This document shows, piece after piece, positions 12,171 through 63,999 of a stretch of DNA of 64,000 bases. Source of the DNA: Microglena sp. YARC (lineage: Eukaryota > Chlorophyta > Chlorophyceae > Chlamydomonadales > Chlamydomonadaceae); contig CM039464.1 of the NCBI GenBank assembly GCA_022414725.1, positions 53,796,268 to 53,860,267 on the forward strand, in the 5' to 3' direction. A program made the translations under genes and the position numbers. The notes beneath the pieces are model-generated. The model was not told the origin of the DNA. It made no database searches and saw nothing but the letters and a program-made list of their open reading frames with translations. The first letter of the stretch is position 1; the number at the start of each line of letters is the position of its first letter.

Positions 12171-12212
12171 TTAGGTGATTAGTGACCTAGCTTCAAGGCC
12201 GGTGAATTACAG

Positions 12213-13570
12213 CTGGTCCGGTAGCCTTCAGCTTCGTGATTGCATAACCATATGCTACGCGAACCCTTAGGTCAGGATGATCCAACTTCATCTTGCGCTT
12301 GATCCCTGCCCAAAATGAGTCCATAGCCTTGCGCTTGCCAATGTACCTCTGAAAGTTGTCTCGGGATTCTCTGCGACGGAGTGCCATCCTCCACCACTCG
12401 TCGGAAAACGTAGCGTACTTTTTCAAGTAAGCCGAGATATCATCCTTCCTGGATGTACTCAACGCTGCTCCATTTTCACGCAGAGACTCCCATCTAGGAA
12501 TCATGTCTGAGAAACGTTTTTCTTGCTGTTTTTCTGTTTCTTGATACCAGACTTGTGGTAAAAAGCTCCGCGTGTAAGCTTCCATGTCTTGCTTTTGTCG
12601 TCTTCCAGATACGTGACTGTAGCGATGTTGCTCCTACCAGGATCCACACCCAGAACGACGATACCCATATCGGGCAATGTCGTTTTGAGTTTATGGTCAT
12701 ACTGTTCTGAGACGCTCATACCTTCCTCGTCACGAGACCTCTTACTTGTCTTCTTCAGATCGGATACACAAACCTGTACTGTCTTGCTGTACTGCATGCT
12801 CAATGAGACTCCGTCAGTACAGATGCTACAATCGAACACCCACCCTGTCTTGACAGGTGGTTTCTTGAAGAAGGAACCTGCGACTGTTTTTCGGGCGTTC
12901 ACGAGCGTGTCATACCTACCCTTTGCATGTCTGTACTCGTCAGTAGCCTTGATATCCTTAACGTCAGCATCGTACTTCTGTTGGGCCAACTTGTATGCCT
13001 CCCATTCACCAGGACCACATGATTTTTCCTCTTAAATGCAGGCTTTAGAGGCAACATGAAGCGGTCGGGATCCTTTACATTTTTCCACTTTGAAAGCTCG
13101 ACGATGTTTGGGTCTTTGGGGAACACGTGCCTGAACAGGTTCACGAGGGTCTTCATGTCAAGGCGGACATGCGCCCGTTGGGCATTGAAGATGGGCATCA
13201 ACCGGATACGACGTGCAACCATAGCCTCGAACCGTGTCTGCATCCAATAATTGAACCGGACCATGGTCGGGAAGTCCATGTCTTTGCCATAGTCATCATA
13301 AAGTCGACTTCCATCTGGAACTTTCAGCCTGACTCGAACTTCACGGACGTACTCCTGAACAGACTCTGGCCAAGATTCCATCTCCTTTATTTCTTGTTGG
13401 ATGACCCTCATCACGTCGTACACACGGATGGTCTTCGGAGCTCCCAGTGCATTCAAAGTATCCTTAGTGAGGCGGGTCAGACGAGGTACCAAAGGAACCC
13501 ATGCGTTGTTCGACATGACAGTGCTCAATGTGTGACCGGCATAGTTCAAAACCTGGTCGAAATAGATAGG
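12213..13570 (-). pseudogene. Fanzor (TnpB-like RuvC nuclease) pseudogene, family A copy A
   Basis: It is nearly identical to the intact Fanzor of copy B (22721-25084) but damaged in four ways. The N-terminal 170 or so codons, including the SAP-like segment, are deleted at a junction near 13575. Single-base indels in A runs shift the frame near 13025 and 12530. The coding sequence ends abruptly near 12213 before the second and third RuvC motifs. The first RuvC motif (GVDPGRSN) is still present. Fanzor proteins are RNA-guided DNA nucleases; this copy cannot make one. Confidence 0.85.
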
Positions 13571-13594
13571 GTAGGAGTTACATCACAGAACTCT

Positions 13595-14503
13595 TTATAC
13601 AAACATCACATACGTGTTCCATACGTGGTCAAAACAACCCATAATGATTTTATCAGTGAGGTTGCTGAATGCTAAGGAAATTATATCAGACACGTGCGTC
13701 TTTGTATCGTTTGGTATATAGTACAATCGACGAAAGTCCTTCTTCACCTTAGCGAAGCACAGCTCAATAGCATTGAATTCTGGACTGTAAGGAGGAGTGT
13801 AACAAATATGTACGGGGCTTCTGAGGACCAAGTTCTTATGGATACTGGCGTTGTCCATTATTACTACTGAATTATTGCACAAACTCAATGAGTCAATAAA
13901 TGCAGCGAAGTCCGTCTTCTTCACAGATCCTTTCTTCACAACGAACTCCTTCCTACCATCTGAAAAAACTGCCATCAACAAACTATGGTGTACCCACCCA
14001 CCAGTAGTTTTAACGATTACAGGTTTTCCTACAGGGGAATACCCATAATGTGGCTTGAGACGCTCAATAAACCCACATTCGTCAACTGATACTAAAATTT
14101 TCCCAGCATTGATTGTATCCTTGTATCTACTACAAAATTCAGTGACAAGTGGAACTAAGTCCCCTTTACACTGTCCACGGAGTTTGCTCCTTTTTCTTGT
14201 AAAACCAATGAGTTTTATGAAACGATACACTGTTTTAGTTGATAATCGTAAATTGTGAGTACTTTTGAAAAATGCAACAACACCTCTTGCGGTTGTGCAT
14301 TGAGTTGACAATAAAAACAATTTCAACAAATCTTTGTTCGTCTCAAAAAGTTTGCTTACAAATTCACGTCGTTTTCGATTTACACCAAAGCGTTTCCACC
14401 TCCATAGAGTAGAACGACTGATGTTCGTAAACACAGAAGTTTTTAACACACCCAAGTCAGCGACCATTCTTAACGCCAATTTTCTAACGGCGATGTCGTA
14501 CAT
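13595..14503 (-). CDS. Mariner/IS630-like DDE transposase, family A
   Basis: 302 residues with an ATG start. The N-terminal half carries helix-turn-helix DNA-binding segments (SRSTLWRWKRFG; STKTVYRFIKLIG). The catalytic half has D141 (SVDECGF), D217 (VIMDNASIHK) and E247 (PPYSPEFNAIE), the DDE triad that cuts and joins DNA. The D217-E247 spacing is 29 residues, shorter than the usual 34 of IS630/Tc1-type enzymes. It is the only uninterrupted transposase in the window and could act in trans on the TA-flanked terminal repeats of other family A copies. It lies directly upstream of the Fanzor gene on the same strand. Confidence 0.85.
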   Translation of the reverse strand: MYDIAVRKLALRMVADLGVLKTSVFTNISRSTLWRWKRFGVNRKRREFVSKLFETNKDLLKLFLLSTQCTTARGVVAFFKSTHNLRLSTKTVYRFIKLIGFTRKRSKLRGQCKGDLVPLVTEFCSRYKDTINAGKILVSVDECGFIERLKPHYGYSPVGKPVIVKTTGGWVHHSLLMAVFSDGRKEFVVKKGSVKKTDFAAFIDSLSLCNNSVVIMDNASIHKNLVLRSPVHICYTPPYSPEFNAIELCFAKVKKDFRRLYYIPNDTKTHVSDIISLAFSNLTDKIIMGCFDHVWNTYVMFV

Positions 14504-14605
14504 TTATTTCCATCTGATATATGTTTCATTTTACGGTCCCGCCGACTGTAGACGCGCTTCCTCTTTCCTCCGACACCAACTTGAGTTGTGTCCGTGAGAG
14601 AGATT

Positions 14606-17143: not shown

Positions 17144-17680
17144 ATGACCCCCCCCACAATTGTTTTCGTGAATTCGAATTCTTGCATGCACTGTCGCAAG
17201 TTCGCTCCTATGTGGGAGGAATTCGAGATGAGATATAAGTCAAAGTTCCCATTGTCTAAGATCTTAAAAATCAACCATGACCTTTTGAGAACCGAAAAGG
17301 GTGCATTTATGACCAAATTGTCAAAGTCCTTCAATGGCTACGTCCCTTTTATTTGCGTTTTTGACGCAAACGGAAATGTAAACGAGTACTCGGGATCTAG
17401 GACGGTCGAAGATATCGAAGCGTTTGCTTCTCAGTTCATGATTGACGCCACGACCAAAATCCAATTGAAGACTTCAACTAAAAAAACATCTGGTTATACT
17501 TCTTCTGGTAATACATCAAGAGGGGCATACTTGGAATTGAAGACTGTTAAGGAATTGAAAGATATGCTAAGACATGGCGGATTTACTTTAAGTGGAAAAA
17601 AGAAAGATCAAATCGATAGATTGTGTGAATTGTCTGTGAAAGATTTCAAACAACTTTCAATACAGTCAACGGAATACTAA
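17144..17680 (+). CDS. Thioredoxin-like protein with C-terminal SAP domain
   Basis: 178 residues, ATG start. Residues 5-105 form a thioredoxin fold with a C14-M-H-C17 redox site (NSNSCMHCRKFAP), a cis-Pro context (GYVPFICVF) and the final strand GNVNEYSG. A Ser/Thr-rich linker leads to a SAP-like helix-extended-helix at about 128-165 (TVKELKDMLRHGG; KKDQIDRLCEL), a DNA-binding motif. Viral thioredoxins and thiol oxidoreductases usually serve disulfide formation in virion proteins; fusion to SAP suggests that it acts near DNA. The last residues and the stop codon are supplied by a family A transposon end starting at 17661, so the natural C-terminus is probably altered. Confidence 0.75.
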   Translation: MTPPTIVFVNSNSCMHCRKFAPMWEEFEMRYKSKFPLSKILKINHDLLRTEKGAFMTKLSKSFNGYVPFICVFDANGNVNEYSGSRTVEDIEAFASQFMIDATTKIQLKTSTKKTSGYTSSGNTSRGAYLELKTVKELKDMLRHGGFTLSGKKKDQIDRLCELSVKDFKQLSIQSTEY

Positions 17681-17880
17681 AATGAAACCGCTTCGTGTAT
17701 TACGGTGTAATCTAATGGTGTAGCAACCCACGGGGCAGTGGAACACCAATACGATTTTGAATCAACAAATTGCAGGATGTTAACGAGAATATCGTGGTTC
17801 TTTTTTAGATCACGGCTCTCCATCCTGCAGACTCCGTATCGTTCGTTTGTCGGTACTTTCGAGAGTGTCCATTGAAGAAA
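17661..17880 (-). mobile_element. Solo family A transposon end
   Basis: Starting at a TA (17661), the sequence CAGTCAACGGAATACTAAAATGAAACCG and what follows to about 17755 is the reverse complement of the 3' end of family A (compare 20490-20569 and 25090-25205). The rest to 17880 matches 56870-57010 but no coding part of the element. This is therefore a remnant or a short non-autonomous derivative. It supplies the stop codon of the thioredoxin-SAP gene. Confidence 0.7.
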
Positions 17881-19668: not shown

Positions 19669-20009
19669 ATGTTCAAGATAAATCTGTTTGCTTTTATCAT
19701 CGCTTTCTCCTTTGGAATAGGCTACTGTTACATGATGTCCCCCCCTCCCAAGGTCGTCGTTAGGTTTCCTTCACCCGCTAATGCCGGGTCTATCGTTTAC
19801 CAAGACAACGCCAAAAATTGCTTTACGTTCGATGCTAAGGAGACTGCGTGCAGTAAGGATGCCATTGCTCAGCCTATTAATGTAGAGGACTTCAAGGGGG
19901 GTATGATGTCTGGTAGGAGGAAATCGACTCAATATCGTGGCACTTACGATAATATTCTTCGTCATTGTTCGCATTCATACAGTTTGGGACATTTGATACC
20001 AGCTTACAG
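19669..20009 (+). pseudogene. NCLDV conserved virion-type membrane protein, truncated
   Basis: It starts with a hydrophobic signal-anchor (residues 3-22, INLFAFIIAFSFGIGYCYMM). A PPPKVVVRFPSP segment and a cysteine-bearing NAGSIVYQDNAKNCFTFDAKE stretch follow. That pattern is known to me from small membrane proteins shared by many giant viruses. After about 114 codons the sequence changes abruptly, at 20010, into the 3' part of a family A Fanzor gene. The frame stays open, giving a 262-residue chimera that ends at 20457. The original C-terminus is lost. The chimera could be made but is unlikely to function. Confidence 0.6.
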
Positions 20010-20569
20010 CCTCTTCAAAGAGGAGGTTCATGTGACAGATGAGTTCAAGACGACTCTCATGTCTTGGGAAACCGGTGCCAAGAAGGAATGTGTTTACAAG
20101 ATTCCAAGTGTCCAAATAACCACGGAAGGTCAGATTCGTCTAGGTTACGAGTTGTTGGGTCACACCCCATTGAAGGAGACTCCAAAGGTCTCTTATTGCG
20201 ACCAGTTGGCGGTGAGGGTGTACTGCACACGTCAAAAAATCCAAGAAAAACACAGGAGGGGTGGCTTAGCCCCCTCTCTTGTCGACAACAACTCGATCAA
20301 GAGGTACCCTGAGGTACGAGGACTGCGATTCTCTCCAGAAACCAGCACTTACTCGGACCGGGACCGCTCCTCTGCTCTCACAATCGCAAGGCTGCACTGC
20401 ATGGAACTGTTGGGTCAAGGGAGACCGCTTTCATTTTGCAGGGATGCGTGTTGTTGATGATGGGCTACAAAAAAACATGATGGTGTTCCACTGCAATGTG
20501 GGTTGCTACACCATAAGGTGTACCGTACACTCCAGAAAGCGGTTTCATTTTAGTATTCCGTCGAGTGTA
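20010..20569 (+). mobile_element. Detached 3' end of a family A transposon
   Basis: From CCTCTTCAAAGAGG onward it is almost identical to 24640-25205 of copy B. It covers the last 140 or so Fanzor codons (RuvC-II VTDEF and RuvC-III SDRDRSSALTIA), the 3' non-coding end and the terminal repeat closing at TA (20568-20569). No 5' part is present. The break falls on a near-palindromic 14-mer, which may have promoted the rearrangement. Confidence 0.85.
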
Positions 20570-21470: not shown

Positions 21471-21945
21471 ATGATGCGTTTTTGCGATGCCTGTGACAAC
21501 ATGATGTTCATTTGCTCGTCGTCGCAGTCTTCAATTGGTCAGAACGATGAGCAGCATTTGTACTTTGAATGTCGCAACTGCCAGAGCGTCGCTCCCGTCA
21601 AGGACGCCTGCATCTTCGAGAGCAACCACTCAGACGACCGGAATTCTTATGAGCAGTTCATGTTGAAGAACATCCGGTAAGACGTGACGCTGCCTCGGGC
21701 ACACAACATCCCTTGCCCCACGTGCAGTCGCAACAACGATGATAACGATGGGGGATCTTCCTCTGTTCTCTTCATCAAGTACGACGCCGACCTGAAGTTC
21801 TTGTACTTTTGCGAACGGTGCGACACGTTCTGGAAAGCAGGTGGAGGTCGCTCAGCTGCCGCGGATTCTCCTAAAGATGCTGCCCCAGATTCTCCTAAGG
21901 ATGCTGTCGCAGATTCTTCTAAGGATGCTGCCGCGGATTCTCCTA
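21471..21945 (+). pseudogene. RNA polymerase subunit RPB9-like, 5' segment
   Basis: It begins MMRFCDACDNMMF, the classic N-terminal zinc ribbon of RPB9. CRNC follows, then (after an in-frame TAA at 21678-21680) the second ribbon with DVTLPRAH, CPTC and CERC. An Ala/Asp/Ser/Pro repeat tail follows and is interrupted at 21944 by transposon copy B. RPB9 aids start-site choice and proofreading by RNA polymerase II-type enzymes; NCLDVs encode their own. The frame continues unchanged past the TAA, so the stop is a point change or a sequencing error. The C-terminal end lies beyond the transposon at 25206-25309. Confidence 0.8.
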
Positions 21946-21990
21946 CAATCGGCGGAACAGTAAAATGAAACATATATCAGATGGAAATAA

Positions 21991-22709
21991 ATGTACGACA
22001 TCGCCGTTAGAAAATTGGCGTTAAGAATGGTCGCTGACTTGGGTGTGTTAAAAACTTCTGTGTTTACGAACATCAGTCGTTCTACTCTGTGGAGGTGTAA
22101 ATCGAAAACGACGTGAATTTGTAAGCAAACTTTTTGAGACAAACAAAGATTTGTTGAAACCCGCACAACCGCAAGAGGTGTTGTTGCATTTTTCAAAAGT
22201 ACTCACAATTTACGATTATCAACTAAAACAGTGTATCGTTTCATAAAACTCATTGGTTTTACAAGAAAAAGAAGCAAACTCCGTGGACAGTGTAAAGGGG
22301 ACTTAGTTCCACTTGTCACTGAATTTTGTAGTAGATACAATCAATGCTGGGAAAATTTTAGTATCAGTTGACGAATGTGGGTTTAGTGAGCGTCTCAAGC
22401 CACATTATGGGTATTCCCCTGTAGGAAAACCTGTTATCGTTAAAACTACTGGTGGGTGGGTACACCATAGTTTGTTGATGGCAGTTTTTTCAGATGGTAG
22501 GAAGGAGATCGTTCTTAAGTAAGGATCTGTGAAGAAGACGGACTTTCGAATCCAGAATTCAATGCTATTGAGCTGTGCTTCGCTAAGGTGAACGTCGATT
22601 GAACTATATACCAAACGATACAAAGACGCACGTGTCTGATATGATTTCCTTAGCATTCAGCAACCTCACTGATAAAATTGTTTTGACCACGTATGTGATG
22701 TTTGTATAA
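21991..22709 (+). pseudogene. Family A transposase, degraded
   Basis: It matches the intact transposase of copy A along its length. It has lost about 60 bases near 22160, carries further indels near 22100 and 22330, a stop at 22520-22522 and a deletion near 22545 that removes the second catalytic Asp region. The DECGF motif has become DECGFSERL in one open stretch (22313-22522). It cannot encode an active enzyme. Confidence 0.85.
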
Positions 22710-22720
22710 AGAGTTCTGTG

Positions 22721-25084
22721 ATGTACAAATTATGTAAGATGGCAACGAAACCTCCAACAGTCGCGAAATTGAAGGAGCTACTAAAATTGGCCGAAGTAGC
22801 ATACTCCTCAAAGGACAAGAAGGACGATATTGTCCGTTTATGCGAAGACAATGGTCTCATAGCCAGACCCCCTCCAGAGTACAAGACCGTGGAAAAGATG
22901 TGCGTCGTGAAGTGCGCCATGAAGAAGGCAATGAGTCTTGACGATGAAGAATTCGGTAAGTTCAGGGGGCATGTGGATCAGCTCGTCAATGTGGTGAGCC
23001 GCATGTTACGGCGTTCCAGTCTGGTGCTGACTTTCCATGTCACGAGGCTCATGGAGGGCGACCTGCCGATTCCTAATATGTACGATATGAAGGATACCTA
23101 CCGGAAGGATTGGCTAAGGATCGGAGTTGACGGCGTCTTTCCAGATGAAGAGAGTAGAATATCATACGAAGCCGTGAAAGACGTAATTGGAAAGGTGCTT
23201 GGTAGCGATGACCCTGACTACATCAACTCCTACCCTATCTATTTCGACCAGGTTTTGAACTATGCCGGTCACACATTGAGCACTGTCGTGTCGAACAACG
23301 CATGGGTTCCTTTGGTACCTCATCTGACCCGCCTCACTAAGGATACTTTGAATGCACTGGGAGCTCCGAAGACCATCCGTGTGTACGACGTGATGAGGGT
23401 CATCCAACAAGAAATACAGGAGATGGAATCTTGGCCAGAGTCTGTTCAGGAGTACGTCCGTGAAGTTCGAGTCAGGCTGAAAGTTCCAGATGGAAGTCGA
23501 CTTTATGATGACTATGGCAAAGACATGGACTTCCCGACCATGGTCCGGTTCAATAATTGGATGCAGACACGGTTCGAGGCTATGGTTGCACGTCGTATCC
23601 GGTTGATGCCCATCTTCAATGCCCAACGGGCGCATGTCCGCCTTGACATGAAGACCCTCGTGAACCTGTTCAGGCACGTGTTCCCCAAAGACCCAAACAT
23701 CGTCGAGCTTTCAAAGTGGGAAAATGTAAAGGATCCCGACCGCTTCATGTTGCCTCTGAAGCCTGCATTTAAGAAGAAAAAATCATGTGGTCCTGGTGAA
23801 TGGGAGGCATACAAGTTGGCCCAACAGAAATACGATGCTGACGTTAAGGATATCAAGGCTACTGACGAGTACAGACATGCAAAGGGTAGGTATGACACGC
23901 TCGTGAACGCCCGAAAAACAGTCGCAGGTTCCTTCTTCAAGAAACCACCTGTCAAGACAGGGTGGGTGTTCGATTGTAGCATCTGTACTGACGGAGTCTC
24001 ATTGAGCATGCAGTACAGCAAGACAGTACAGGTTCGTGTATCCGATCTGAAGAAGACAAGTAAGAGGTCTCGTGACGAGGAAGGTATGAGCGTCTCAGAA
24101 CAGTATGACCATAAACTCAAAACGACATTGCCCGATATGGGTATTGTCCTTGTGGGTGTGGATCCTGGTAGGAGCAACATCGTTACAGTCACGTATCTGG
24201 AAGACGACAAAAGCAAGACATGGAAGCTTACACGCGGAGCTTTTTACCACAAGTCTGGTATCAAGAAACAGAAAAAACATCAAGAAAAACGTTTCTCAGA
24301 CATGATTCCTAGATGGGAGTCTCTGCGAGTAAATGGAGCAGCGTTGAGTACATCCAGGAAGGATGATATCTCGGCTTACTTGAAAAATTACGCTACGTTT
24401 TCCGACGAGTGGTGGAGGATGGCACTCCGTTGCAAAGAATCCCGAGACAACTTTCAGAGGTACATTGGCAAGCGCAAGGCTATGGACTCATTTTGGGCAG
24501 GGATCAAGCGCAAGATGAAGTTGGATCATCCTGACCTAAGGGTTCGCGTAGCATATGGTTCTGCAATCACGAAGCTGAAGGCTACCGGACCAGGAGAGGT
24601 AGCTGTGCCTACGGGATCTATGTTCGCTTCCTGCAAGCGCCTCTTCAAAGAGGAGGTTCATGTGACAGATGAGTTCAAGACGACTCTCATGTCTTGGGAA
24701 ACCGGTGCCAAGAAGGAATGTGTTTACAAGATTCCAAGTGTCCAAATAACCACGGAAGGTCAGATTCGTCTAGGTTACGAGTTGTTGGGTCACCCATTGA
24801 AGGAGACTCCAAAGGTCTCTTATCGCGACCAGTTGGCGGTGAGGGTGTACTGCACACGTCAAAAAATCCAAGAAAAACACAGGAGGGGTGGCTTAGCCCC
24901 CTCTCTTGTCGACAACAACTCAATCAAGCGGTACCCTGAGGTACGAGGACTGCGATTCTCTCCAGAAACCAGCACTTACTCGGACCGGGACCGCTCCTCT
25001 GCTCTCACAATCGCAAGGCTGCACTGCATGGAACTGTTGGGTCAAGGGAGACCGCTTCCATTTTGCAGGGATGCGTGTTGTTGA
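22721..25084 (+). CDS. Fanzor RNA-guided nuclease (TnpB-like), SAP-containing, full length
   Basis: 787 residues from ATG 22721 (a second ATG at 22739 is also possible). Residues 11-46 form a SAP-like helix pair (TVAKLKELLKLAEVAY; KKDDIVRLCEDNGL). A long helical region follows, then a split RuvC domain: D481 (GVDPGRSN), E651 (VTDEFKTT) and D757 (SDRDRSSALTIA), the expected D-E-D catalytic set. The zinc-ribbon cysteines between motifs II and III of many TnpB proteins are not evident. Fanzor proteins use an RNA made from the transposon 3' end to guide DNA cleavage; they were first described inside eukaryotic and giant-virus transposons. All catalytic residues are present, so it may be active. 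Confidence 0.85.
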   Translation: MYKLCKMATKPPTVAKLKELLKLAEVAYSSKDKKDDIVRLCEDNGLIARPPPEYKTVEKMCVVKCAMKKAMSLDDEEFGKFRGHVDQLVNVVSRMLRRSSLVLTFHVTRLMEGDLPIPNMYDMKDTYRKDWLRIGVDGVFPDEESRISYEAVKDVIGKVLGSDDPDYINSYPIYFDQVLNYAGHTLSTVVSNNAWVPLVPHLTRLTKDTLNALGAPKTIRVYDVMRVIQQEIQEMESWPESVQEYVREVRVRLKVPDGSRLYDDYGKDMDFPTMVRFNNWMQTRFEAMVARRIRLMPIFNAQRAHVRLDMKTLVNLFRHVFPKDPNIVELSKWENVKDPDRFMLPLKPAFKKKKSCGPGEWEAYKLAQQKYDADVKDIKATDEYRHAKGRYDTLVNARKTVAGSFFKKPPVKTGWVFDCSICTDGVSLSMQYSKTVQVRVSDLKKTSKRSRDEEGMSVSEQYDHKLKTTLPDMGIVLVGVDPGRSNIVTVTYLEDDKSKTWKLTRGAFYHKSGIKKQKKHQEKRFSDMIPRWESLRVNGAALSTSRKDDISAYLKNYATFSDEWWRMALRCKESRDNFQRYIGKRKAMDSFWAGIKRKMKLDHPDLRVRVAYGSAITKLKATGPGEVAVPTGSMFASCKRLFKEEVHVTDEFKTTLMSWETGAKKECVYKIPSVQITTEGQIRLGYELLGHPLKETPKVSYRDQLAVRVYCTRQKIQEKHRRGGLAPSLVDNNSIKRYPEVRGLRFSPETSTYSDRDRSSALTIARLHCMELLGQGRPLPFCRDACC

Positions 25085-25205
25085 TGGGCTACAAAAAACA
25101 TGATGGTGTTCCACTGCAATGTGGGTTGCTACACCATAAGATTACACCATAATGTGTACCGTACACTCCAGAAAGCCGTTTCATTTTAGTATTCCGTCGA
25201 GTGTA
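25085..25205 (+). ncRNA. Candidate Fanzor guide-RNA (fRNA) scaffold at transposon 3' end
   Basis: These 121 bases between the Fanzor stop and the terminal TA are repeated, with little change, at 20460-20569, and in part at 34975-35064 and (inverted) 17661-17755. The core is GGGTTGCTACACCATAA followed by GTACACTCCAGAAAG. In known Fanzor and TnpB systems the scaffold is transcribed from this position and the guide comes from the flanking DNA, here the RPB9-like tail. No promoter or structure was proved; assigned by position and conservation only. Confidence 0.35.
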
Positions 25206-34654: not shown

Positions 34655-35064
34655 TACAGTCGGCGGAACAGTAAAATGAAACATATATCAGATGGAAATA
34701 AATAAATGTACGACATCGCCGTTAGAAAATTGGCGTTAAGAATGGTCGCTGAATTGGGTGTGTTAAAAACTTCTGTGTTTACGAACCTTCAGCGATACAT
34801 TGGCAAGCGCAAGGCAATGGACTCATTTTGGGCAGGGATCAAGCGCAATATGATGATGGACCATCATCCTGACCTGAAATCTGCTCTCACAATCGCAAGG
34901 CTGTACTGCATGGAACTATTGGGTCTAGGGAGACCGCTTCCATTTTCCCGGTGCAAGGATGCGTGTTGTTGACGGGCTACAGGTGTTCCACTGCCCCGTG
35001 GATTTCTACACCATAAGGCACACACTCCGGTGTGGCCGTACACTCCAGAAAGCGGTTTCATTTC
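34655..35064 (+). mobile_element. Family A internal-deletion derivative
   Basis: It starts at TA (34655-34656) with CAGTCGGCGGAACAGTAAAA and the transposase start. It jumps after about 30 codons to a Fanzor segment (QRYIGKRKAMDSFWAGIKR), jumps again to the Fanzor end (SALTIARLYCMELLG), and then runs into the 3' non-coding end. It is cut off just before the right terminal repeat. An open frame of 88 codons (34706-34972) fuses transposase and Fanzor pieces. The two internal deletions show how MITE-like derivatives arise from this family. Confidence 0.85.
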
Positions 35065-35280: not shown

Positions 35281-35314
35281 TCTTTGTATTATTTATAGTT
35301 TTATTATTGGCGGC

Positions 35315-37272
35315 ACTTCCAGTTTGCAATATTTCTTTGGCCTCGCAAGAATTGCGGGGCGGATCGGGTACATTGTAAAGCAATTGTGGATGTTAATGGC
35401 TGCATTTAGGTCACGGTTTACAAACAACTTGCTGTTCTCCATGGTGGAATTGCACCATAGCAAGCCTCGAACCGTGCGCCCTTCTTTTTCGGACTGCACA
35501 CTCTGGAGGACGGTGGTGCTGTCCTTGTGCCAGATCTTTGTGGTACGGAATTCGTCAATGACGGCAACTCGCCCCTTGAAACGGTCGCTAAACGCATTGA
35601 ACGCGCTCGTTGTAGGGACAGAAAGTTCACCCTTGCCACCAGGGGCAAACTTAGCAGAACCGTATGCGACGACAATTGTTTTCCTCTCACCGACAGCCTC
35701 CTGGACCTCGTTGAAGAAGCGTGCTAAGACACGTTTCTTGCCACCGTAGAGCCGCAGGCGCTGCGCGCCCCACCGCGACTTGGACATCTCCCCCCATCAA
35801 GAATCCCAATGGTTGACCATTACAGCCACGTAAGCGTCAAACGACACTAGAGACGTGTGCTTGGGACTGTTGTCCTTCAGGTCGTCAAGGCAGTCCTGGA
35901 TGTTGGACAACCACTTCTTGGTCGGCCCTCTCGATTTGAAGACCCCGCTCTCAACGTAGTACCGCTCCCGCGTGAGTCTCTTGCTCCCGCGTGAGTCTCT
36001 CGCAGTGCCTCTTCCTCTTCCTACCCCCCTTATCTTTTTCTTCGACCTTATTTTTCTTCCAAGTCAAAAAGGCAATGTTGCAGCGGCCAGGGTCGTTTGC
36101 AACGACCACCACATTGGGGTCGGACTCGGAAAACTCGCGGAGAATCTTGGTCTGCTAATTAATCGCCGTTCCGTCGTCCTTGATTGAAATCTTTTTCTTC
36201 TCGGCCCTAAGAAAGTGGGTACAAGCCATTACGCCGTCAGTGTCTATGGTGCATGTAAACACACCTTTCCCAGCAGAACGGATGTTTTCCACATCGAAGA
36301 CCTACTCCCAGTGCTCCTTGTTCGTCAGCGTCTTTTCGAGACTCTCGATGAGACCCACGTCCTTGAGGACGCCCAGTAGGCCGTCGGTGTCTATCGTGAT
36401 GAAGGCGTGCTTGACTGTTGGGATGGGAGCGATGTTGACCAGCTTGGCGTAGCCCTCGTCCTCTGTGGCCTCGAGGTATCGATTGATAAAGACGTTGTAC
36501 CGGATCATCTTGGCGCTGTTGGAAACGCTCTTGAGCCACTGTCGGTTGATCTTGTCCCGTCCGAGGATCGAGTGCTGAATCTTAAGCAACATCTTTGTTC
36601 GCTCCGGTAGGAGCGAATGTATCGCTATGAGGTCTTCCTTTACTCCCCAAGAGTGGATATCGTAGAGGAGGTATCGGTGGAATACGGTCTCGTCAATGCC
36701 GTACTCATCTTTGATCTCCTTGGCCAAGATCCTGTTTTCCTTCGAGTAAACGAACTTCTTGATCCATGTGGAGAGATGGACTCTGTAGTGGTTATTGAAG
36801 TTGGTCAGGTACTTCTTCGACGCGTGGCTGTACAGGTTTCGATCGCCATCGTAGCGAGCGATGGCACCCACGTATTGTTTCTTCTTTTTCACAATTACCT
36901 CGCGCCCCTCAATCTTCTCCCTAAACCAATAGTTGTTGTGAAAGAACCTTTCGACTGTGGCGTCCCTCGTCTCCATGTGCGCCTGTCTCGACCCCACCAT
37001 AAGCTGCCGAATGAAGTTCTGGTCGACGCTAGGTACACTTACAGTGTGCAGTTGCGCATCTGGTACCCCTTCAAAGACTTCTTTTTGGATACGCTGTCGA
37101 CCCGCTCCTTAATCACCTTGATGATAACGCCCTTGTTGTCCTTATCCGCTATGATCCGACTCAGTGTACACTTTACCACGTTCTCCTCGCCGTTTTTCCT
37201 GTCCTTAATTTTGGCCGCCCGGTCCGGTCGCGTACGCTTGTCTGGAGGCTCTTTATTGACTATCGTCTCCAT
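35315..37272 (-). pseudogene. Fanzor pseudogene, family C copy C1
   Basis: It starts METIVNKEPPDKRTRPDR. A deletion of about 50 bases near 37080, a stop at about 36300, a lysine-to-stop change near 36160 and frame changes near 35990-35800 break it. Conserved parts are the RuvC-I motif (ANDPGRCN, near 36090), RuvC-II (VIDEFRTTK, near 35550) and RuvC-III (NRDLNAAINI, near 35410). It has no SAP segment and is only distantly related to the family A Fanzor. Confidence 0.85.
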
Positions 37273-37301: not shown

Positions 37302-38213
37302 TCAAGGTCCAGAAATTGTATTCAATGACTTTTGAAAAAAAGCCTCTACGTATTTCTCTTTAACAGAACTCAAAGCCTTATACACATCTTGGCTTTTATA
37401 GAAATCGCGTTTGACGATGGAGAACACCCCTTCTATTGGGTTGAACCAAGGTAGTAGGGAGGAGTGTATAGGAGCTCCCACCCCCTTGAAGCTGCAAGTG
37501 TTTTGACCTTCTTGGAGTGGTGAAACGCCACGTTGTCAAGTATAATTACTGTGTCAGTTGGACAGTCCAAATTTTCTAAAAACTCAACAAAAGTATGCGT
37601 GTTGAAAGACCCTTGCCTGATGTTAAAATAAATTTCTCCTTTGCCTTGTTGAATAAGACAAAGTGCTGACATTGTCGTCACCCTAGGTTCTCAACCTCGG
37701 TACAACCAGTAGCTCTCCCTTTGGTGAGTAGCCAAACACGTCTCTCGTATGTCTTCCAAATGAAGTTTCGTCGATCGATACAAAAGTCCTCCCTTCCCCT
37801 TTTAACCGTTCCCTTTGGCTTATGAATGACGTGGTTTTCTCATATAAGTTATCAGGCCTGGAGAAGAACTTTGCTTTTTTCTTTGTGAGCCCAAGCCTTT
37901 TTATCACAACGTGAATCAACTCTTTTGATACCTCAAATCCGAAAGCATCCGTTACCTTATGACGAAGACCAGCAAGAGATGCGAATGGATCTATTTTTAA
38001 TGACGCCTTTAAGAACTCTATGACCACATCCGATTTTGTAGGTTTATTCCGTTTGTACACTTTTTTAGTGGGGTTTGAGATCCACCTCGAGACTGTCATG
38101 TGGCTTACATTTGCAAGTATAGCCACTCTCCTCAAACTTTGCAGCAATGTGTACATGTGTACAACAATCGACCGTCTGTCCAAGTTGTACATAGAGAATT
38201 GGAATTGATTCAA
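37302..38213 (-). pseudogene. IS630-like DDE transposase, family C, frameshifted
   Basis: It starts near 38213. HTH segment RVAILANVSHMTVSRWI lies in the N-terminus, then FVSIDETSFGR (first Asp). After a shift near 37682 comes IILDNVAFHHSKK (second Asp), and after another near 37450 the PIEGVFSIVKRDF region (Glu). Counting over the conserved parts gives 34 residues between the second Asp and Glu, the usual DD34E of IS630-type enzymes. Two frameshifts make it inactive. Confidence 0.8.
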
Positions 38214-38996: not shown

Positions 38997-41058
38997 ATGG
39001 AGACGATAGTCAATAAAGAGCCTCCGGACAAGCGTACGCGACCGGACCGGGCGGCCAAAATTAAGGACAGGAAAAACGGCGAGGAGTACGTGGTAAAGTG
39101 TACACTGAGTCGGATCATAGCGGATAAGGACAACAAGGACGTTATCATCAAGGTGATTAAGGAGCGGGTCGACAGCGTATCCAAGAGGACTTATCTTGCC
39201 GGTGTTGCGGTGAACCGGATATTAAAAGAAGTCTTCGAAGGGGTACCAGATGCGCAACTGCACACTGTAAGTGTCCCTAGCGTCGACCAGAACTTCATTC
39301 GGCAGCTTATGGTGGGGTCGAGACAGGCGCACATGGAGACGAGGGACGCCACAGTCGAAAGGTTCTTTCACAACAACTATTGGTTTAGGGAGAAGGTTGA
39401 GGGGCGCGAGGTAATTGTGAAAAAGAAGAAACAATACGTGGGTGCCATCGCTCGCTACGATGGCGATCGAAACCTGTACAGCCACGCGTCGAAGAAGTAC
39501 CTGACCAACTTCAATAACCACTACAGAGTCCATCTCTCCACATGGATCAAGAAGTTCGTTTACTCGAAGGAAAACAGGATCTTGGCCAAAGAGTTCAAAG
39601 ATGAGCACGGCATTGACGAGACCGTATTCCACCGATACCTCCTCTACGATATCCACTCTTGGGGAGTAAAGGAAGACCTCATAGCGATACATTCGCTCCT
39701 ACCGGAGCGAACAAAAGATGTTGCTTAAGATTCAGCACTCGATCCTCGGACGGGACGAGATCAACCGACAGTGGCTCAAGAGCGTTTCCAACAGCGCCAA
39801 GATGATCCGGTACAACGTCTTTATCAATCGATACCTCGAGGCCACAGAGGACGAGGGCTACGCCAAGCTGGTCAACATCGCTCCCATCCCAACAGTCAAG
39901 CACGCCTTCATCACGATAGACACCGACGGCCTACTGGGCGTCCTCAAGGACGTGGGTCTCATCGAGAGTCTCGAAAAGACGCTGACGAACAAGGAGCACT
40001 GGGAGTCGGTCTTCGATGTGGAAAACATCCGTTCTACTGGGAAAAGTGTGTTTACATGCACCATAGACACTGACGGCGTAATGGCTTGTACCCACTTTCT
40101 TAGGGCCGAGAAGAAAAAGATTTCAATCAAGGACGACGGAACGGCGAATAAGAAGCAGACCAAGATTCTCCGCGAGTTTTCCGAGTCCGACCCCAATGTG
40201 GTGGTCGTTGCAAACGACCCTGGCCGCTGCAACATTGCCTTTTTGACTTGGAAGAAAAATAAGGTCGAAGAAAAAAGATAAGGGGGGTAGGAAGAGGAAG
40301 AGGCACTGCGAGTTCGGGAGCAAGAGACTCACGCGGGAGCGGTACTACGTTGAGAGCGGGGTCTTCAAATCTAGAGGGCCGACCAAGAAGTGGTTGTCTA
40401 ACATCTAGGACTGCCTTGACGACCTGAAGGACAACAGTCCCAAGCGCACATCTCTAGTGTCGTTTGACGCTTACGTGACTGTAATGGTCAACCATTGGGA
40501 TTCTCGATGGGGGGAGATGTCCAAGTCGCGGTGGGGCGCGCAGCGCCTGCGGCTCTACGGTGGCAAGAAACGTGTCTTAGCACGCTTCTTCAACAAGGTC
40601 CAGGCGGATGTCGGTGAGAGGAAAACAATTGTCGTCGCATACGGTTCTGCTAAGTTTGCCCCTGGTGGCAAGGGTGAACTTTCTGTCCCTACAACGAGCG
40701 CGTTCAATGCGTTTAGCGACCGTTTCAAGGGGCGAGTTGCCGTCATTGACGAATTCCGTACCACAAAGATCTGGCACAAGGACAGCACCACCGTCCTCCA
40801 GAGTGTGCAGTCCGAAAAAGAAGGCGCACGGTTCGAGGCTTGCTATGGTGCAGTTCCACCATGGAGAACAGCAAGTTGTTTGTAAACCGTGACCTAAATG
40901 CAGCCATTAACATCCACAATTGCTTTACAATGTACCCAATCCGCCCCGGAATTCTTGCGAGGCCAAAGAAATATTGCAAACTGGAAGTTGTGGTAGGACG
41001 CAAAATTGATTACAAGCTGACAGGTTCTTTACAGAACGCAGTGTCGAGCGAAGTGTAG
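38997..41058 (+). pseudogene. Fanzor, family C copy C2, nearly full length
   Basis: ATG at 38997. The frame is open for 243 codons and then shifts in an A run at 39713. It continues to 40281, shifts in another A run, meets a TAG at 40407-40409 and shifts once more near 40826. RuvC motifs are present: D at 40216 (ANDPGRCN), E at 40751 (VIDEFRTTK) and D at 40891 (NRDLNAAINI). Three of the four lesions are one-base homopolymer changes and could be sequencing errors; the TAG is a C-to-T change relative to copy C3. Confidence 0.8.
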
Positions 41059-45330: not shown

Positions 45331-47458
45331 ATGCATTCACACACGCGATCATCGTTTCCACTACTAACGTGTCCCTATGACATTCTTGATCGTATTGCCC
45401 TATTCTCTTCCAACCCCAAGATTGTATTAGTGTGTACAACTCTGCACAAAAGATTTTCGGGATGGCCCCTTACCGGATTAATCCAACAACCGCAGCGAGT
45501 TGGAGAGATGATGGCGAAAGGGGGGCGCGCCGACCTTCTAGCAGTATGCTTGGTGTCCAATCCTCTTGTACAGGTTAAGGGGGCCCTACAATTGAGGGCG
45601 AACCAAAATGAAAACAAGCTTCTCTATGTGGCTGCCAAGGAAGGTCACGCAGATGTCTGCAAGCTGCTCATGGATCCAGAGGTGGCTGGAATTGAGTTCA
45701 GAGCCCTGGCGAACTCTAGCGACAGCATGGCATTGTGGCTGGCTGCAAAGGAAGGTCACGCAGATGTCTGCAAGCTGCTGATGGATCCAGAGGTGGCTGG
45801 ACTTGAGTATAGGGCCCGGGCGAACTCTAACGACAGCTGGGCCTTGTGGGCGGCTGCCAAGGAAGGTCACGCAGATGTCTGCAAGCTGCTGATGGATCCA
45901 GCGGCGGCTGGACTGGAGTATAGGGCCAGGGCGAACTCTAGCGACAGCTGGGCCTTGCGGGAGGCTGCAAAGGAAGGTCACACAGATGTATGCAAGCTGC
46001 TGATGGATCCAGAGGTGGCTGGACTTGAGTTCAGGGCCAGGGCGAACTCTAACGACAGCAGGGCCTTGTGGGCGGCTGCCAATGAAGGTCACGCAGATGT
46101 CTGCTAGCTGCTGATGGATCCTGCGGTGGCTGGACTTTATTACAGGGCCTTGGCAAACTGTAGCGACAGCTGGGCATTGTGGGCGGCTGCCAAGGCAGGT
46201 CACGAAGATGTCTGCAAGCTGCTGATGGATCCTGAGGTGGCTGGACTTGAGTACAGGGCCCGGGCGAACAATATCAACATCAGGGCCTTGTGGGCGGCTG
46301 CCAAGGAAGGTCACGCAGATGTCTGCAAGCTGCTCGTGGATCCAGCGGTGGCTGGACTTGAGTATAGGGCCCGGGCGAACTCTAGCGACAGCTGAGCCTT
46401 GTGTGAGGCTGCAAATGAAGGTCACGCAGATGTCTGCAAGCTGCTGATGGATCCAGAGGTGGCTGGAATTGAGTACAGGGCCCGGGCGAACAATATCAAC
46501 AGCAGGGCCTTGGGGGCGTCTGCCAAGGCAGGTCACGCAGATGTCTGCAAGCTGCTGATGGATCCGGCAGTGGCTGGACTCAAGTACAGGGCCAGGGCGA
46601 ACAATATCAACAGCAGGGCCTTGGGGGCGTCTGCTAAGGCAGGTCACGCAGATGTCTGCAAGCTGCTCATGGGATCCAGCTGAACTTGAGTTCAGGGCCC
46701 GGGCGAACTCTGTCAACAGCTGGGCCTTGTGGGAGGCTGCCAATGAAGGTCACGCAGATGTCTGCAAACTGCTGATGGATCCTGCGGTGGCTGGACTTGA
46801 GTACAGGGCCCTGGCGAACTCTAGCGACAGCTGGGCATTGTGGGCGGCTGCCAAGGCAGGTCACGAAGATGTCTGCAAGCTGCTGATGGATCCAGAGGTG
46901 GCTGGACTTGAGTACAGGGCCCGGGCGAACAATATCAACATCAGGGCCTTGTGGGCGGCTGCCAAGGAAGGTCACGCAGATGTCTGCAAGCTGCTCATGG
47001 ATCCAGCGGTGGCTGGACTTGAGTATAGGGCCCGGGCAAACTCTAGCGACAGCTGGGCCTTGTGTGAGGCTGCAAATGAAGGTCACGCAGATGTCTGCAA
47101 GCTGCTGATGGATCCAGAGGTGGCTGGAATTGAGTACAGGGCCCGGGCGAACAATATCAACAGCAGGGCCTTGGGGGCGTCTGCCAAGGCAGGTCACGCA
47201 GATGTCTGCAAGCTGCTGATGGATCCGGCAGTGGCTGGACAGGGCCAGGGACAGGTCCAGGGACAGGGCCAGGGCCAGGGACAGGTCACGCAGATGTCTG
47301 CAAGCTGCTCATGGGATCCAGCTGAACTTGAGTTCAGGGCCCGGGCGAACTCTGTCAACAGCTGGGCCTTGTGGGAGGCTGCGAAGGAAGGTCACGCAGA
47401 TGTCTGCAAGCTGCTGTGGATCCTGAGGCGGCAGGCCCCGAGTACAGGGCCATTGTGA
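45331..47458 (+). pseudogene. F-box/ankyrin-repeat protein, copy 1, decayed
   Basis: ATG at 45331. Residues 12-40 resemble an F-box (LTCPYDILDRIALF; IVLVCTTLHKRFSGW). They are followed by ankyrin repeats with a 37-residue (111-nt) period and the core AAKEGHADVCKLLMDPEVAG. The frame is interrupted by TAG at 46105 (lysine codon changed), TGA at 46393 (Trp codon changed) and a short, frame-shifting unit near 46672, after which it continues in another frame to 47458. A GQGQ minisatellite (47240-47285) replaces part of a repeat. F-box/ankyrin proteins usually link targets to SCF ubiquitin ligases and are frequent in large DNA viruses. Confidence 0.7.
46114..47340 (+). repeat. Internal 0.66-kb duplication inside the ankyrin array
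   Basis: Bases from 46114 and from 46775 run in parallel for about 560 bases, including variant repeats (NNINIRALW, NNINSRALGASAK) in the same order. The first copy carries the TGA (46393) that the second lacks. So a block of about six repeats duplicated as a unit, and the nonsense change arose afterwards. Confidence 0.8.
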
Positions 47459-50070: not shown

Positions 50071-51070
50071 NNNNNNNNNNNNNNNNNNNNNNNNNNNNNN
50101 NNNNNNNNNNNNNNNNNNNNNNNNNNNNNNNNNNNNNNNNNNNNNNNNNNNNNNNNNNNNNNNNNNNNNNNNNNNNNNNNNNNNNNNNNNNNNNNNNNNN
50201 NNNNNNNNNNNNNNNNNNNNNNNNNNNNNNNNNNNNNNNNNNNNNNNNNNNNNNNNNNNNNNNNNNNNNNNNNNNNNNNNNNNNNNNNNNNNNNNNNNNN
50301 NNNNNNNNNNNNNNNNNNNNNNNNNNNNNNNNNNNNNNNNNNNNNNNNNNNNNNNNNNNNNNNNNNNNNNNNNNNNNNNNNNNNNNNNNNNNNNNNNNNN
50401 NNNNNNNNNNNNNNNNNNNNNNNNNNNNNNNNNNNNNNNNNNNNNNNNNNNNNNNNNNNNNNNNNNNNNNNNNNNNNNNNNNNNNNNNNNNNNNNNNNNN
50501 NNNNNNNNNNNNNNNNNNNNNNNNNNNNNNNNNNNNNNNNNNNNNNNNNNNNNNNNNNNNNNNNNNNNNNNNNNNNNNNNNNNNNNNNNNNNNNNNNNNN
50601 NNNNNNNNNNNNNNNNNNNNNNNNNNNNNNNNNNNNNNNNNNNNNNNNNNNNNNNNNNNNNNNNNNNNNNNNNNNNNNNNNNNNNNNNNNNNNNNNNNNN
50701 NNNNNNNNNNNNNNNNNNNNNNNNNNNNNNNNNNNNNNNNNNNNNNNNNNNNNNNNNNNNNNNNNNNNNNNNNNNNNNNNNNNNNNNNNNNNNNNNNNNN
50801 NNNNNNNNNNNNNNNNNNNNNNNNNNNNNNNNNNNNNNNNNNNNNNNNNNNNNNNNNNNNNNNNNNNNNNNNNNNNNNNNNNNNNNNNNNNNNNNNNNNN
50901 NNNNNNNNNNNNNNNNNNNNNNNNNNNNNNNNNNNNNNNNNNNNNNNNNNNNNNNNNNNNNNNNNNNNNNNNNNNNNNNNNNNNNNNNNNNNNNNNNNNN
51001 NNNNNNNNNNNNNNNNNNNNNNNNNNNNNNNNNNNNNNNNNNNNNNNNNNNNNNNNNNNNNNNNNNNNNN
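50071..51070. other. Assembly gap (1,000 N)
   Basis: Exactly 1,000 unknown bases, so probably a placeholder of arbitrary size. It begins inside what looks like the 5' flank of a third ankyrin gene. Confidence 0.99.
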
Positions 51071-61347: not shown

Positions 61348-63610
61348 AATGGAGACGATAAGTCAATAAAGAGCCTCCGGACAAGCGCGTACGCGACCGG
61401 ACCGGGCGGCCAAAATTAAGGGACTAGGAAAAACGGCGGAGGAGAACGTGGTAAAGTGTACACTGAGTCGGATCATCAGCTGATAAGGACAACAAGGACG
61501 TTATCATCAAGGTGATTAAGGAGCGGGTCGACAGCATTCCAAGAGGACTGCTATCTTGCCGGTGTTGCGGTGAACCGGATATTAAAAGAAGTCTTCGAAG
61601 GGTACCTACAGATGCGCAACTTCACACTGTAAGTGTCCTAGCATCGACCAGAACTTCATTCGGCAGCTTTATGGTGGGGTCGAGACAGGCACATGGAGAC
61701 GAGGACGCCACAGTCGAAAGGTTCTTTCACAACAACTATTGGTTTAGGGAGAAGATTTGAGGGGCGCGAGGTAATTGTGTTGAAAAAAGAAAGAAAACAA
61801 TACGTGGGTGCCAATCGCTCGCTACGATGGCGACCTCGAAACCTGTACAGCACGCGTCGAAGGAAGTACCTGACCAACTTCAATAAACACTACAGAGTCC
61901 ATCTCTCACACATGGATCAAGAAGTTCGTTTTTTACTCGAAGGAAAACAGGATCTTGGCCAGGAGATCAAAAGATGAGCACGGCATTGACGAGACAGTAT
62001 TCCACCGATACCCTCCTCTACGATATCCCACTTCTTGGGAGTAAAGGAAGACTCATAGCGATACATTCTCTCCTACCGGAGCGAACAAAGATGTTGCTTA
62101 AGATTCAGCACTCGATCCTCGGACGGGACGAGATCAACCGACAGTGGCTCAAGAGCGTTTCCACAGCGCCAAGATGATCCGGTACAACGTCTTTATCAAT
62201 CGACTACCTCGAGGCCACAGAGGACGAGGGCTACGCCAGCTGGTCAACAATCGCTCCCATCCCAACAGTCAAGCACGCCTTCATCACGATAGACACCGAC
62301 GGCCTACTGGGCGTCCTCAAGGACGTGGGTCTCATCGAGAGTCTCGAAAAGACGCTGACAAACAAGGAGCACTGGGAATCGGTCTTCAATGTGGAAAACA
62401 TCTGTTCTACTGGGAAAGGTGTGTTTACATGCACCATAGACACTGACGGCGTAATGGCTTGTACCCACTTTCTTACGGGCCGAGAAGAAAAAGATTTCAA
62501 TCAAGGACGACGGAACGGCGATTAAGAAGCAGACCAAGACTCTCCGCGAGTTTTCCGAGTCCGACCCCAATATGGTGGTCGTTGCAAACGACCCTGGCCG
62601 CTGCAACATTGCCTTTTTGACTTGGAAGAAAAATAAGGTTGAAGAAAAAGATAAGGGGGGTAGGAAGAGGAAGAGGCACTGCGAGTTCGGGAGCAAGAGA
62701 CTCACGCGGGAGCGGTACTACGTTGAGAGCGGGGTCTTCAAATCTAGAGGGCCGACCAAGAAGTGGTTGTCTAACATCCAGGACTTGCCTTGACGACCTT
62801 GAAGGACAACAGTCCAAGCGGCACATCTCTAGTGTCGTTTAGACGCTTACGTGACTGTAATGGTCAACCATTGGGGATTCTCGATGGGGGGAGATGTCCA
62901 AGTCGAGGTGGGGGCGCGCAGCGCCTGCGGCTCTATGGTGGCATCAAGAAACGTGTCTTAGCACGCTTCTTCAACGAGGTCCAGGCGGATGTCGGTGAGA
63001 GGAAAACAATTAATGGGCGTTCCTGCTCCGGCCGATTTTTTTAAATTTCTAATCAGGATTTAGAGCCTCCTGAAGACTCGCTAGCTTGAGACATCAGCAC
63101 CAAGGAATCACAAATCCGCTCCATACCATGTTTCGCAACCAGTCAAAATCGCCGGGAGGCAGGAACGCCCATTAATTGTCATCGCATACGGTTTCTGCTA
63201 AGTCTGCCCCTGGTGGCAAGGGTGAACTTTTCTGTCCCTACAACGAGCGCGTTCAAGGGCGTTATAGCGACCGTTTCAAGGGGCGAGTTGCCCGTCATTG
63301 ACGAATTCCGTACCACAAAGATCTGGGCACAAGGACAGCACCACCGTCCTCCAAGTGTGCAGTCCGAAAAAGAAGGGCGCACGGTTCGAGGCTTGCTATG
63401 GTGCAGTTCCACCATGGAGAACAGCAAGTTGTTTGTAAACCGTGACCTAAATGCAGCCATTAACTCCAATTGCTTTACAATGTACCCAATCCGCCCGGAA
63501 TTCTTGCGGCGAGGCCAAAGAAATATTGCAAACTGGAAGTGTGTGGTAGGACGCAAAATTGATTACAAGCTGACAGGTTCTTTACAGAACGCAAGTGTCG
63601 AGCGAAGTGT
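61348..63610 (+). pseudogene. Fanzor pseudogene, family C copy C3
   Basis: ATGGAGACGATA start as in C2. RuvC-I (NDPGRCN, near 62590), RuvC-II (VIDEFRTTK, near 63300) and RuvC-III (NRDLNAAIN, near 63445) are all present but in different frames. A 166-base MITE plus target duplication interrupts the coding sequence at 63008. At the site of the C2 nonsense codon this copy has CAG. Confidence 0.8.
63012..63173 (+). mobile_element. Family M MITE nested in Fanzor copy C3, with AATT target duplication
   Basis: The 162-base element starts AATGGGCGTTCCTGCTCCGG and ends, inverted, AATGGGCGTTCCTGCCTCCC. It is flanked by AATT at 63008-63011 and 63174-63177. The uninterrupted site in copy C2 (near 40625) has a single AATT. 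This defines element boundaries, target and duplication length directly. Confidence 0.9.
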
Positions 63611-63926: not shown

Positions 63927-63999
63927 TACAGTCGGCGGAACAGTAAAATGAAACATATATAATTTCCATCTGTTTCATTTTACTGTTCCGATGACTGTA
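63927..63999. mobile_element. 73-bp near-palindromic family A mini-element
   Basis: TA, then CAGTCGGCGGAACAGTAAAA TGAAACATATA, a few central bases from the subterminal ATTTCCATCTG, then TTTCATTTTACTGTTCCG and TGACTG, and TA. Both terminal repeats are complete and almost nothing is left between. It should be movable by the family A transposase if that is active. Confidence 0.85.

Follow-up and report, generated by a model that had tools for sequence, protein, structure and literature searches.

Of the function of Fanzor proteins in eukaryotic transposons "little is known" (PMC10711439; this and the other papers are cited here for the accessible parts of their text). A Fanzor within a TA-flanked element of the brown-algal virus EsV-1 is already in print (PMC3627910). 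"Many" Fanzors, not all, carry a zinc finger; the same source defines an alternative RuvC-II glutamate (Ealt), which is typical of Fanzors, and names a TDG motif (PMC10711439). Here, we analyse a Fanzor gene in a 64,000-nt stretch of DNA from Microglena sp. YARC (hereafter the window), which is located at 53.8 Mb on contig CM039464.1 (C3) of a 568 Mb genome. The gene is carried by a TA-flanked Tc1/mariner transposon at 21944-25205. We consider it probable (roughly 0.7) that this copy represents a Tc1/mariner transposon family with a Fanzor1 cargo from a zinc-less clade bearing an HeH/SAP module, and that the family works by the steps proposed below. The Fanzor gene has the following features:

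22721-25084, plus strand: Fanzor1 open reading frame (ORF), 787 aa, with a single terminal stop and no internal stops
22757-22849, plus strand: N-terminal HeH/SAP-like segment, residues 13-43 (Pfam, model, alignment)
24161-24163, plus strand: RuvC-I aspartate D481 (DPG motif; alignment)
24671-24673, plus strand: RuvC-II alternative glutamate E651 (alignment)
24692-24703, plus strand: S658 to T661, where the zinc ribbon would have its first CxxC (alignment)
24959-24970, plus strand: site of the second CxxC, here S747 to T750 (alignment)
24989-24991, plus strand: RuvC-III aspartate D757 (alignment)

A frame of 787 codons with 29 database relatives (E <= 0.001) is not a chance ORF, and translation bore out the uninterrupted frame given in a preliminary description of this DNA. 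By profile, AlphaFold model, and fold search, the protein is a full-length Fanzor, as that description had it, and belongs to Fanzor1: the predicted structure has the Fanzor fold (WED/REC/RuvC/NUC) and matches Fanzor1 structures from residue 56-58 on. When the window protein is aligned with the 29 relatives (30 rows), D481 is conserved in 29 of 30 rows, E651 in all 28 rows with a letter, and D757 in 28 of 29. In a wider set, the D-E-D triad is kept in all 47 rows which cover the three sites, and DPG is found at the first RuvC site in 50 of 51 rows. The three residues, described earlier as standing in canonical contexts, are indeed at the positions claimed, but E651 is the alternative glutamate, six residues before the expected start of the zinc finger, and not the canonical glutamate of TnpB; the zinc ribbon after it is absent. 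The TDG motif of the WED domain (T423, D424, G425) is invariant in the 30 rows and is profile-aligned to GtFz1 and SpuFz1. The window Fanzor may well perform RNA-guided DNA cleavage. Its true start is uncertain because in most other copies the open frame has its first ATG 13 codons further upstream. Ni-superoxide dismutase and VRK1 were rejected as relatives; these short single-sequence matches vanish when a profile is used.

None of the four cysteines of the C4 zinc finger, expected between [TS][TS] and RD according to the motif of Bao and Jurka (2013), is present in the window protein. Of 47 members, 46 have lost the zinc ribbon and lack three or four ligands each (cysteine occupies the four ligand positions in 1, 1, 24, and 1 of the 47 rows). 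Any CxxC between E651 and D757 is restricted to 1 of 48 rows, and the full zinc set to P0054, an outlier devoid of HeH. Given that the zinc finger occurs in many Fanzors and not in all, the clade is best seen as a divergent zinc-less branch and not as a typical member of Fanzor1. P0050 and P0052 have neither the zinc ligand set nor HeH. Zinc loss first and HeH gain second is the likeliest order to be read from the sequences.

The window also contains a second, distant Fanzor family in three broken copies: 35302-37099 (minus strand), 38997-40998 (plus strand), and 62001-63299 (plus strand). Its readable copy has one cysteine and no CxxC between DEFRTT and NRD; the copy at 38997 has about 30 residues before the core and no HeH. 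Because this family retains DEFRTT and NRD, zinc loss looks tolerated. This bears on the possibility that the zinc-less Fanzor has ceased to be a nuclease and is now either an RNA/DNA-binding regulator or in decay. Such a loss of activity would fit the missing ligands (all four in the window protein) and a ratio of nonsynonymous to synonymous polymorphism (pN/pS) above 1, based on few changes, in the last 37 Fanzor residues. It is at odds with the intact DED triad in 47 of 47 rows across a deep clade, with a Fanzor dN/dS of 0.39, with the many copies that have open frames, and with the second family, and we consider it improbable.

At the N-terminus, the AlphaFold model of the full protein has helices 14-23 and 34-43 linked by an extended loop (predicted local distance difference test, pLDDT, 73-83 for the block), the helix - extended loop - helix arrangement of about 35 residues of the SAP/HeH/LEM group. 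The SAP-like N-terminus reported earlier is thus upheld by the full model, and structure prediction yielded neither of the results named beforehand as contrary, namely absence of a SAP-like fold or a disrupted RuvC core. Pfam HeH scores the window protein at 18.1 bits (cut-off 28.9). HeH matches at E <= 0.1 are found in 11 of 30 members, one member matches Ish1 at 5e-10, and P0021 carries a precomputed Ish1 domain. Relative L002 is above the Pfam SAP cut-off (27.1 vs 23.9 bits), with only 17 of 37 positions matching in the best stretch. The best match of a profile (A3) made from 23 of 28 N-terminal pieces, some of them trimmed, is FluMu gp35 (E 0.0048). The N-terminus is readable in 48 members (the window protein included; the start of the P0052 N-terminus was unseen), and 45 of them have, as judged by eye, the pattern LKxLL...K..DL..LC..NGL. 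Each of these lines is weak alone; we take the N-terminus to be an HeH/SAP-like segment outside the Fanzor core.

Two or three modules per protein occur in some members: tandem HeH-like segments are found in P0024-P0027, P0047-P0049, and L003, and P0021 and P0030 each have one more copy at an internal position. As judged by sequence, the segment is typical of a whole Fanzor1 clade and is no local oddity; capture by the window copy only is ruled out by the presence of the module in nearly the whole clade. In a midpoint-rooted tree of 46 of 54 rows (>= 740 aa), 43 rows lie beyond one branch (bootstrap 96; Shimodaira-Hasegawa-like approximate likelihood ratio test 90), among them P0020, which lacks a readable N-terminus. 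Since the module-less P0050, P0052, and P0054 are outside, a single gain of the HeH module is the simplest reading, with the join of the long branches P0052 and P0054 being unsure.

The module might alternatively be a LEM-like protein-binding motif, directed at a chromatin or nuclear-envelope partner for example, and not a DNA-binding SAP. Its best Pfam match is HeH/LEM (in the 11 of 30 members just mentioned), and Ish1, matched by one relative, is a putative nuclear-envelope organisation family. The score of L002 above the SAP cut-off and the recurrent basic residues in the loop of the module point the other way, and we regard a LEM-like role as unlikely, yet with a substantial chance of being correct. 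A SAP-like segment is also seen at the C-terminus of a thioredoxin-like ORF (17144-17680, plus strand; Pfam SAP E 0.0046, below cut-off), with 50% identity to the Fanzor HeH over 30 residues; a lone inverted right end of the transposon begins at the 3' end of this ORF.

A SAP-like segment on this type of Fanzor within a virus-borne mariner element had been presented as not known to be described. No description of a Fanzor or TnpB with a SAP domain was found in our literature search, itself partial; in the visible text of PMC10432273 and of PMC11423790, SAP appears once each, as part of Homo sapiens. The same partial search did not find the zinc-less, HeH-bearing Fanzor1 branch in print as a variant; as a kind it is known. 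A Fanzor in a TA-flanked viral element is not new (PMC3627910).

The element in which the gene resides comprises:

21944-21945, no strand: left TA target-site copy, with C before it at 21943 (CTA; end mapping)
21946-21971, plus strand: left terminal inverted repeat (TIR), pairing with 25178-25205 over 28 nt (86% complementarity)
21991-22709, plus strand: decayed Tc1/mariner-like (DDE_3) transposase gene with frameshifts and stops, described in pieces
25103-25205, plus strand: right-end non-coding region, predicted guide-RNA scaffold of three stems (folding; the third stem uses the right TIR and TA)
25178-25203, minus strand: right TIR (repeat pairing)
25204-25205, no strand: right TA target-site copy (end mapping)

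TA target-site copies and imperfect TIRs delimit 21944-25205, and the transposase of a sister copy in the window (copy A) matches DDE_3 at E 1.6e-23; this is a Tc1/mariner transposon with TA on both flanks. The terminal-repeat motif occurs 9 times in the window, compared to a mean of 0.14 in shuffled sequences. Transposase stretches of the window copy are 60-75% identical to the intact 302-aa relative at 13595-14503, and the piece at 22307-22519 matches DDE_3 at E 4.4e-4, below the Pfam cut-off. The relative L003 has its genes in the same order, a 333-aa transposase followed by a Fanzor with three HeH-like segments, which is cut by the contig end. In the relative L002, perfect 31-nt repeats of the same type as in the window element surround a Fanzor that is divided over two frames. 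Both are on short contigs in bacterial metagenome-assembled genomes and have probably been misbinned.

The element belongs to a multi-copy family. Fanzor P0001 has at least 58 matching rows in the genome, corresponding to at least 57 loci, i.e., at least 56 beside that of the window (57 of 2086 candidates were scored; two rows represent one locus); 40 of the 58 rows have no internal stops. The transposase has at least 134 matches (130 of 2777 candidates scored). We examined 41 copies, namely 40 of the 56 further loci and the window copy. The Fanzor frame has at least 780 codons in 30 of these, the transposase frame of 302 is found in 12, and 11 have both; in one of the 30, L044, foreign sequence takes over after residue 764. 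C-termini of the Fanzor are altered in L013, L018, L038, and L046. A complete element has about 3,450 bp. The closest pair of copies is only 2 coding changes apart, and such near-identical copies indicate that the family was recently active in this genome. A second transposase class (92-94% identical, 328-codon frame) has two elements that were seen in full, both of which carry a Fanzor (L082, 98% to P0002; L083, 92-99%, in pieces); the other 18 were seen at the left end only. The preliminary description, which had read this copy as a Fanzor with a SAP-like head, was correct in that and incomplete with respect to the clade-wide occurrence of the segment, the zinc loss, the broken transposase, and the further loci.

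For the 30 open copies (435 pairs), mean dN is 0.0174 and mean dS 0.0448, a ratio of 0.39 (0.38 for the 406 pairs without L044). Pooled pN/pS is 0.17 for HeH, 0.40 for WED/REC, 0.41 for RuvC, and 0.46 for the zinc-equivalent region.

The window and some of the copies appear to lie in virus-like DNA, to judge from gene look-alikes and dense ORFs, in agreement with the earlier placement of the element in such DNA. A stretch beside one copy (L052) holds ankyrin and RING genes, and one beside another (L053) an MscS-type channel gene. Ankyrin or RING genes of the window have clear relatives beside L028, L033, and L048, and in L052 (73 flank pieces, 50 kb in total); the ankyrin-repeat gene at 45331-46107 (plus strand) has relatives with 84-94% identity over the matched stretch beside the elements L028, L033, and L048. 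Searches with Fanzor P0001, A1, and the TIR pattern found no relatives among viral contigs, and none were found among phage records; a helicase ORF matched one distant viral contig. Copies might have been spread by duplication of integrated viral DNA, not by transposition. The virus-like character of the window and two other stretches (ankyrin, RING, and MscS genes in dense ORFs) and the near-identical DNA flanking L028 and L048 would agree with this. The intact ends have 31 distinct left and 38 distinct right 12-mers, however, the L028 and L048 insertions are six bases apart within the shared sequence, and copies have TA on both sides, which leaves spread by duplication very improbable.

The insertion sites have a one-sided bias. 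Left ends could be located in 34 of the 41 copies; C precedes the TA position in 32 of the 34, and in 30 of the 31 where TA is intact. With a flank C frequency of 0.21, binomial p is about 1e-19 for 32 of 34; C precedes 45 of 326 TA in those flanks. On the right side, the 38 intact ends (G14, C9, A9, T6) have no comparable bias. The second transposase class has C at 18 of 19 intact left ends (20 fetched), and further left ends at CTA are found in the window (14549, 34654, 63926, 63998) and in L024 and L030. That C belongs to the element itself is ruled out, as empty sites assign it to the target: the L021 site is found empty beside L029 as ATACTAGG, and L028 and L048, inserted six bases apart in one sequence duplicated on two chromosome-scale contigs, each show the empty CTA site of the other. 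The side of the bias and its overlap with the target-site duplication (TSD) are those of a target-adjacent motif (TAM), and a Fanzor with the TAM CTA would leave a one-sided C bias. We infer that CTA may be the TAM of this Fanzor.

The transposase alone could also set the CTA preference, as an end-specific preference for one flank, with the Fanzor as a passenger that has no role in siting. Both biased classes carry transposases 92-98% identical to that of the window, so that the bias fits either reading, the terminal repeats are not identical, which makes an end-specific preference possible, and an internally deleted copy (copy D) as well as the left ends at 63927-63999 are also at CTA. A full copy could have provided the Fanzor at the time when these derivatives inserted. 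Tc1/mariner elements integrate at a symmetric TA, so that reading of one flank is not expected from the transposase. Moreover, the biased side is that on which the TAM must lie (PMC10711439), and the measured TAM of SpuFz1, CATA, likewise ends in TA (PMC10432273). We consider siting by the transposase alone unlikely, though far from negligible. The 328-codon class was discarded as a Fanzor-free control, as both of its elements seen in full carry a Fanzor.

After the Fanzor stop codon, right ends have two hairpins followed by the right repeat. Nine right ends were folded, and each has three stems with the last closed by TA (z -1.1 to -3.8). Stem 1 is nearly invariant among right ends; a sister subfamily has the same layout with a different first stem. 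In stem 2, 97.7% of cells are paired, and covariation is 0.208, compared to 0.070 in shuffles (reached in 0 of 500). In L045, L046, and L049, both partners differ in five of the eight pairs of stem 2, and pairing is kept. By analogy to described systems, the right ends may act as the guide RNA of the Fanzor.

We propose that the family works as follows. The DDE transposase would cut and paste the element at TA. The Fanzor would bind the right-end RNA, with the two hairpins and the stem of right repeat and TA as scaffold and the first bases of the right flank as guide. The ribonucleoprotein would then recognise the empty donor site as 5'-CTA plus a guide match and cut it with the D481/E651/D757 RuvC site. 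Repair from an element-holding copy, a step taken by analogy to TnpB, would restore the element, so that elements at CTA are kept or copied. The HeH module would tether the protein to DNA or chromatin.

Several observations weigh against this proposal. The transposase of the window copy is broken. The zinc ribbon is missing, though it is part of the published Fanzor motif, and the N-terminal piece is modelled poorly (pLDDT 60.7) when folded alone from its single sequence. For residues 751-787, the last 37, pN/pS is 1.49 (1.56 without L044) at a very low pS of 0.009-0.016, which, with few changes of either kind, argues against uniform constraint. Left ends preceded by T (L018), A (L067, of the second class), and G (an extra end in L014, GTA) deviate from CTA. 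A possible empty site from L031/L024 (82% alike) has ACTC instead of CCTA, another from L034/L032 is in a tandem repeat and not clean, and a Fanzor-free relative against which to check the CTA bias could not be found. In the RNA, two of five stem-2 measures do not exceed shuffles (pairs changed on both sides, 41 of 500; further pair types, 193 of 500). The stem-2 covariation stems from a single lineage (3 of 13 rows) and could be mimicked by a one-base slide of both arms. The 13 right ends used for covariation and the 9 for folding were picked by hand, and the 13 omit L025, which lacks stem 2. The right end of the window itself folds no better than shuffles at 121 nt (z 0.03) and at 103 nt has z -1.18, a value reached by 14 of 100 shuffles; its stem 2 has two broken pairs.

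A near-identical multi-copy family with a one-sided flank motif, empty sites, and intact and broken copies side by side provides natural data on why Fanzors ride in transposons. A zinc-less branch with a natural head of DNA-binding type would show what the NUC domain can do without. In a more far-reaching scenario, which we put forward tentatively and at somewhat less than even odds, a deep Fanzor1 branch lost its zinc ribbon and later acquired HeH/SAP modules, one to three in number, that hold the enzyme on chromatin; together with the mariner transposase, this would make a homing transposon guided by RNA, and dozens of insertions in a present-day genome would directly reveal its native target motif, CTA.

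Apart from the full element, the window contains the following sister copies:

12196-14551, minus strand: copy A, with left end, intact 302-aa transposase (13595-14503), and Fanzor residues 169-630, frameshifted and with the HeH part deleted
17661-17748, minus strand: lone right end in inverted orientation
20009-20569, plus strand: copy C, with Fanzor residues 641-787, which continue the frame of an unrelated ORF upstream, and right end
34655-35063, plus strand: copy D, internally deleted, with left end, two Fanzor scraps, and a damaged right end

Copy C is part of an in-frame chimera (19669-20457, plus strand) of about 114 residues of the unrelated ORF followed by Fanzor residues 641-787, and retains one residue (HT for H) missing from the full window copy. 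At 63927-63999, two left ends are face to face, a few bases apart, and resemble a palindromic mini-element. A distant transposase-like ORF (37701-38213, minus strand; Pfam LacI 2.2e-6, HTH_Tnp_IS630 0.009) has 23% identity to the transposase of the element over 169 columns. The window also contains a run of exactly 1000 N (50071-51070), probably a scaffold gap.

Compared to the solved Fanzor1 proteins SpuFz1 (8gkh/9ceu-9cez), GtFz1 (9cer-9cet), and PpFz1 (9cf0/9cf1), the overall predicted fold is alike from window residue 56-58 on, as are the TDG and DPG region by profile and the DED triad with the alternative glutamate. The window protein differs from all three by its HeH-like N-terminal module, with identities of 11-16%, and from SpuFz1 by the lack of the C4 zinc ribbon; it resembles SpuFz1 in that the native TAM of the latter ends in TA. 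ESv-1 from Ectocarpus siliculosus virus 1 likewise places a Fanzor1 between terminal repeats and TA target-site copies; in the accessible text it has no transposase assigned and SAP is not mentioned, and the likeness to the window element is by description (PMC3627910). In PGv-1 and other Tc/mariner elements of giant-virus DNA, a single TIR pair likewise encloses a mariner-type transposase together with Fanzor1; PGv-1 additionally encodes a third, GIY-YIG protein, for which the window element has no room (PMC3627910). The Fanzor-bearing element of Ectocarpus endogenous viruses, with insertions that vary between integrated phaeoviruses, differs by its IS4 transposase and 8-nt target-site copies (PMC13236599). 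Fanzor1 right-end RNAs (reRNAs) of SfAV and other insect viruses form three stems, and their scaffold includes TIR and TSD (PMC10711439); the nine right ends folded here are predicted to share this SfAV-type layout.
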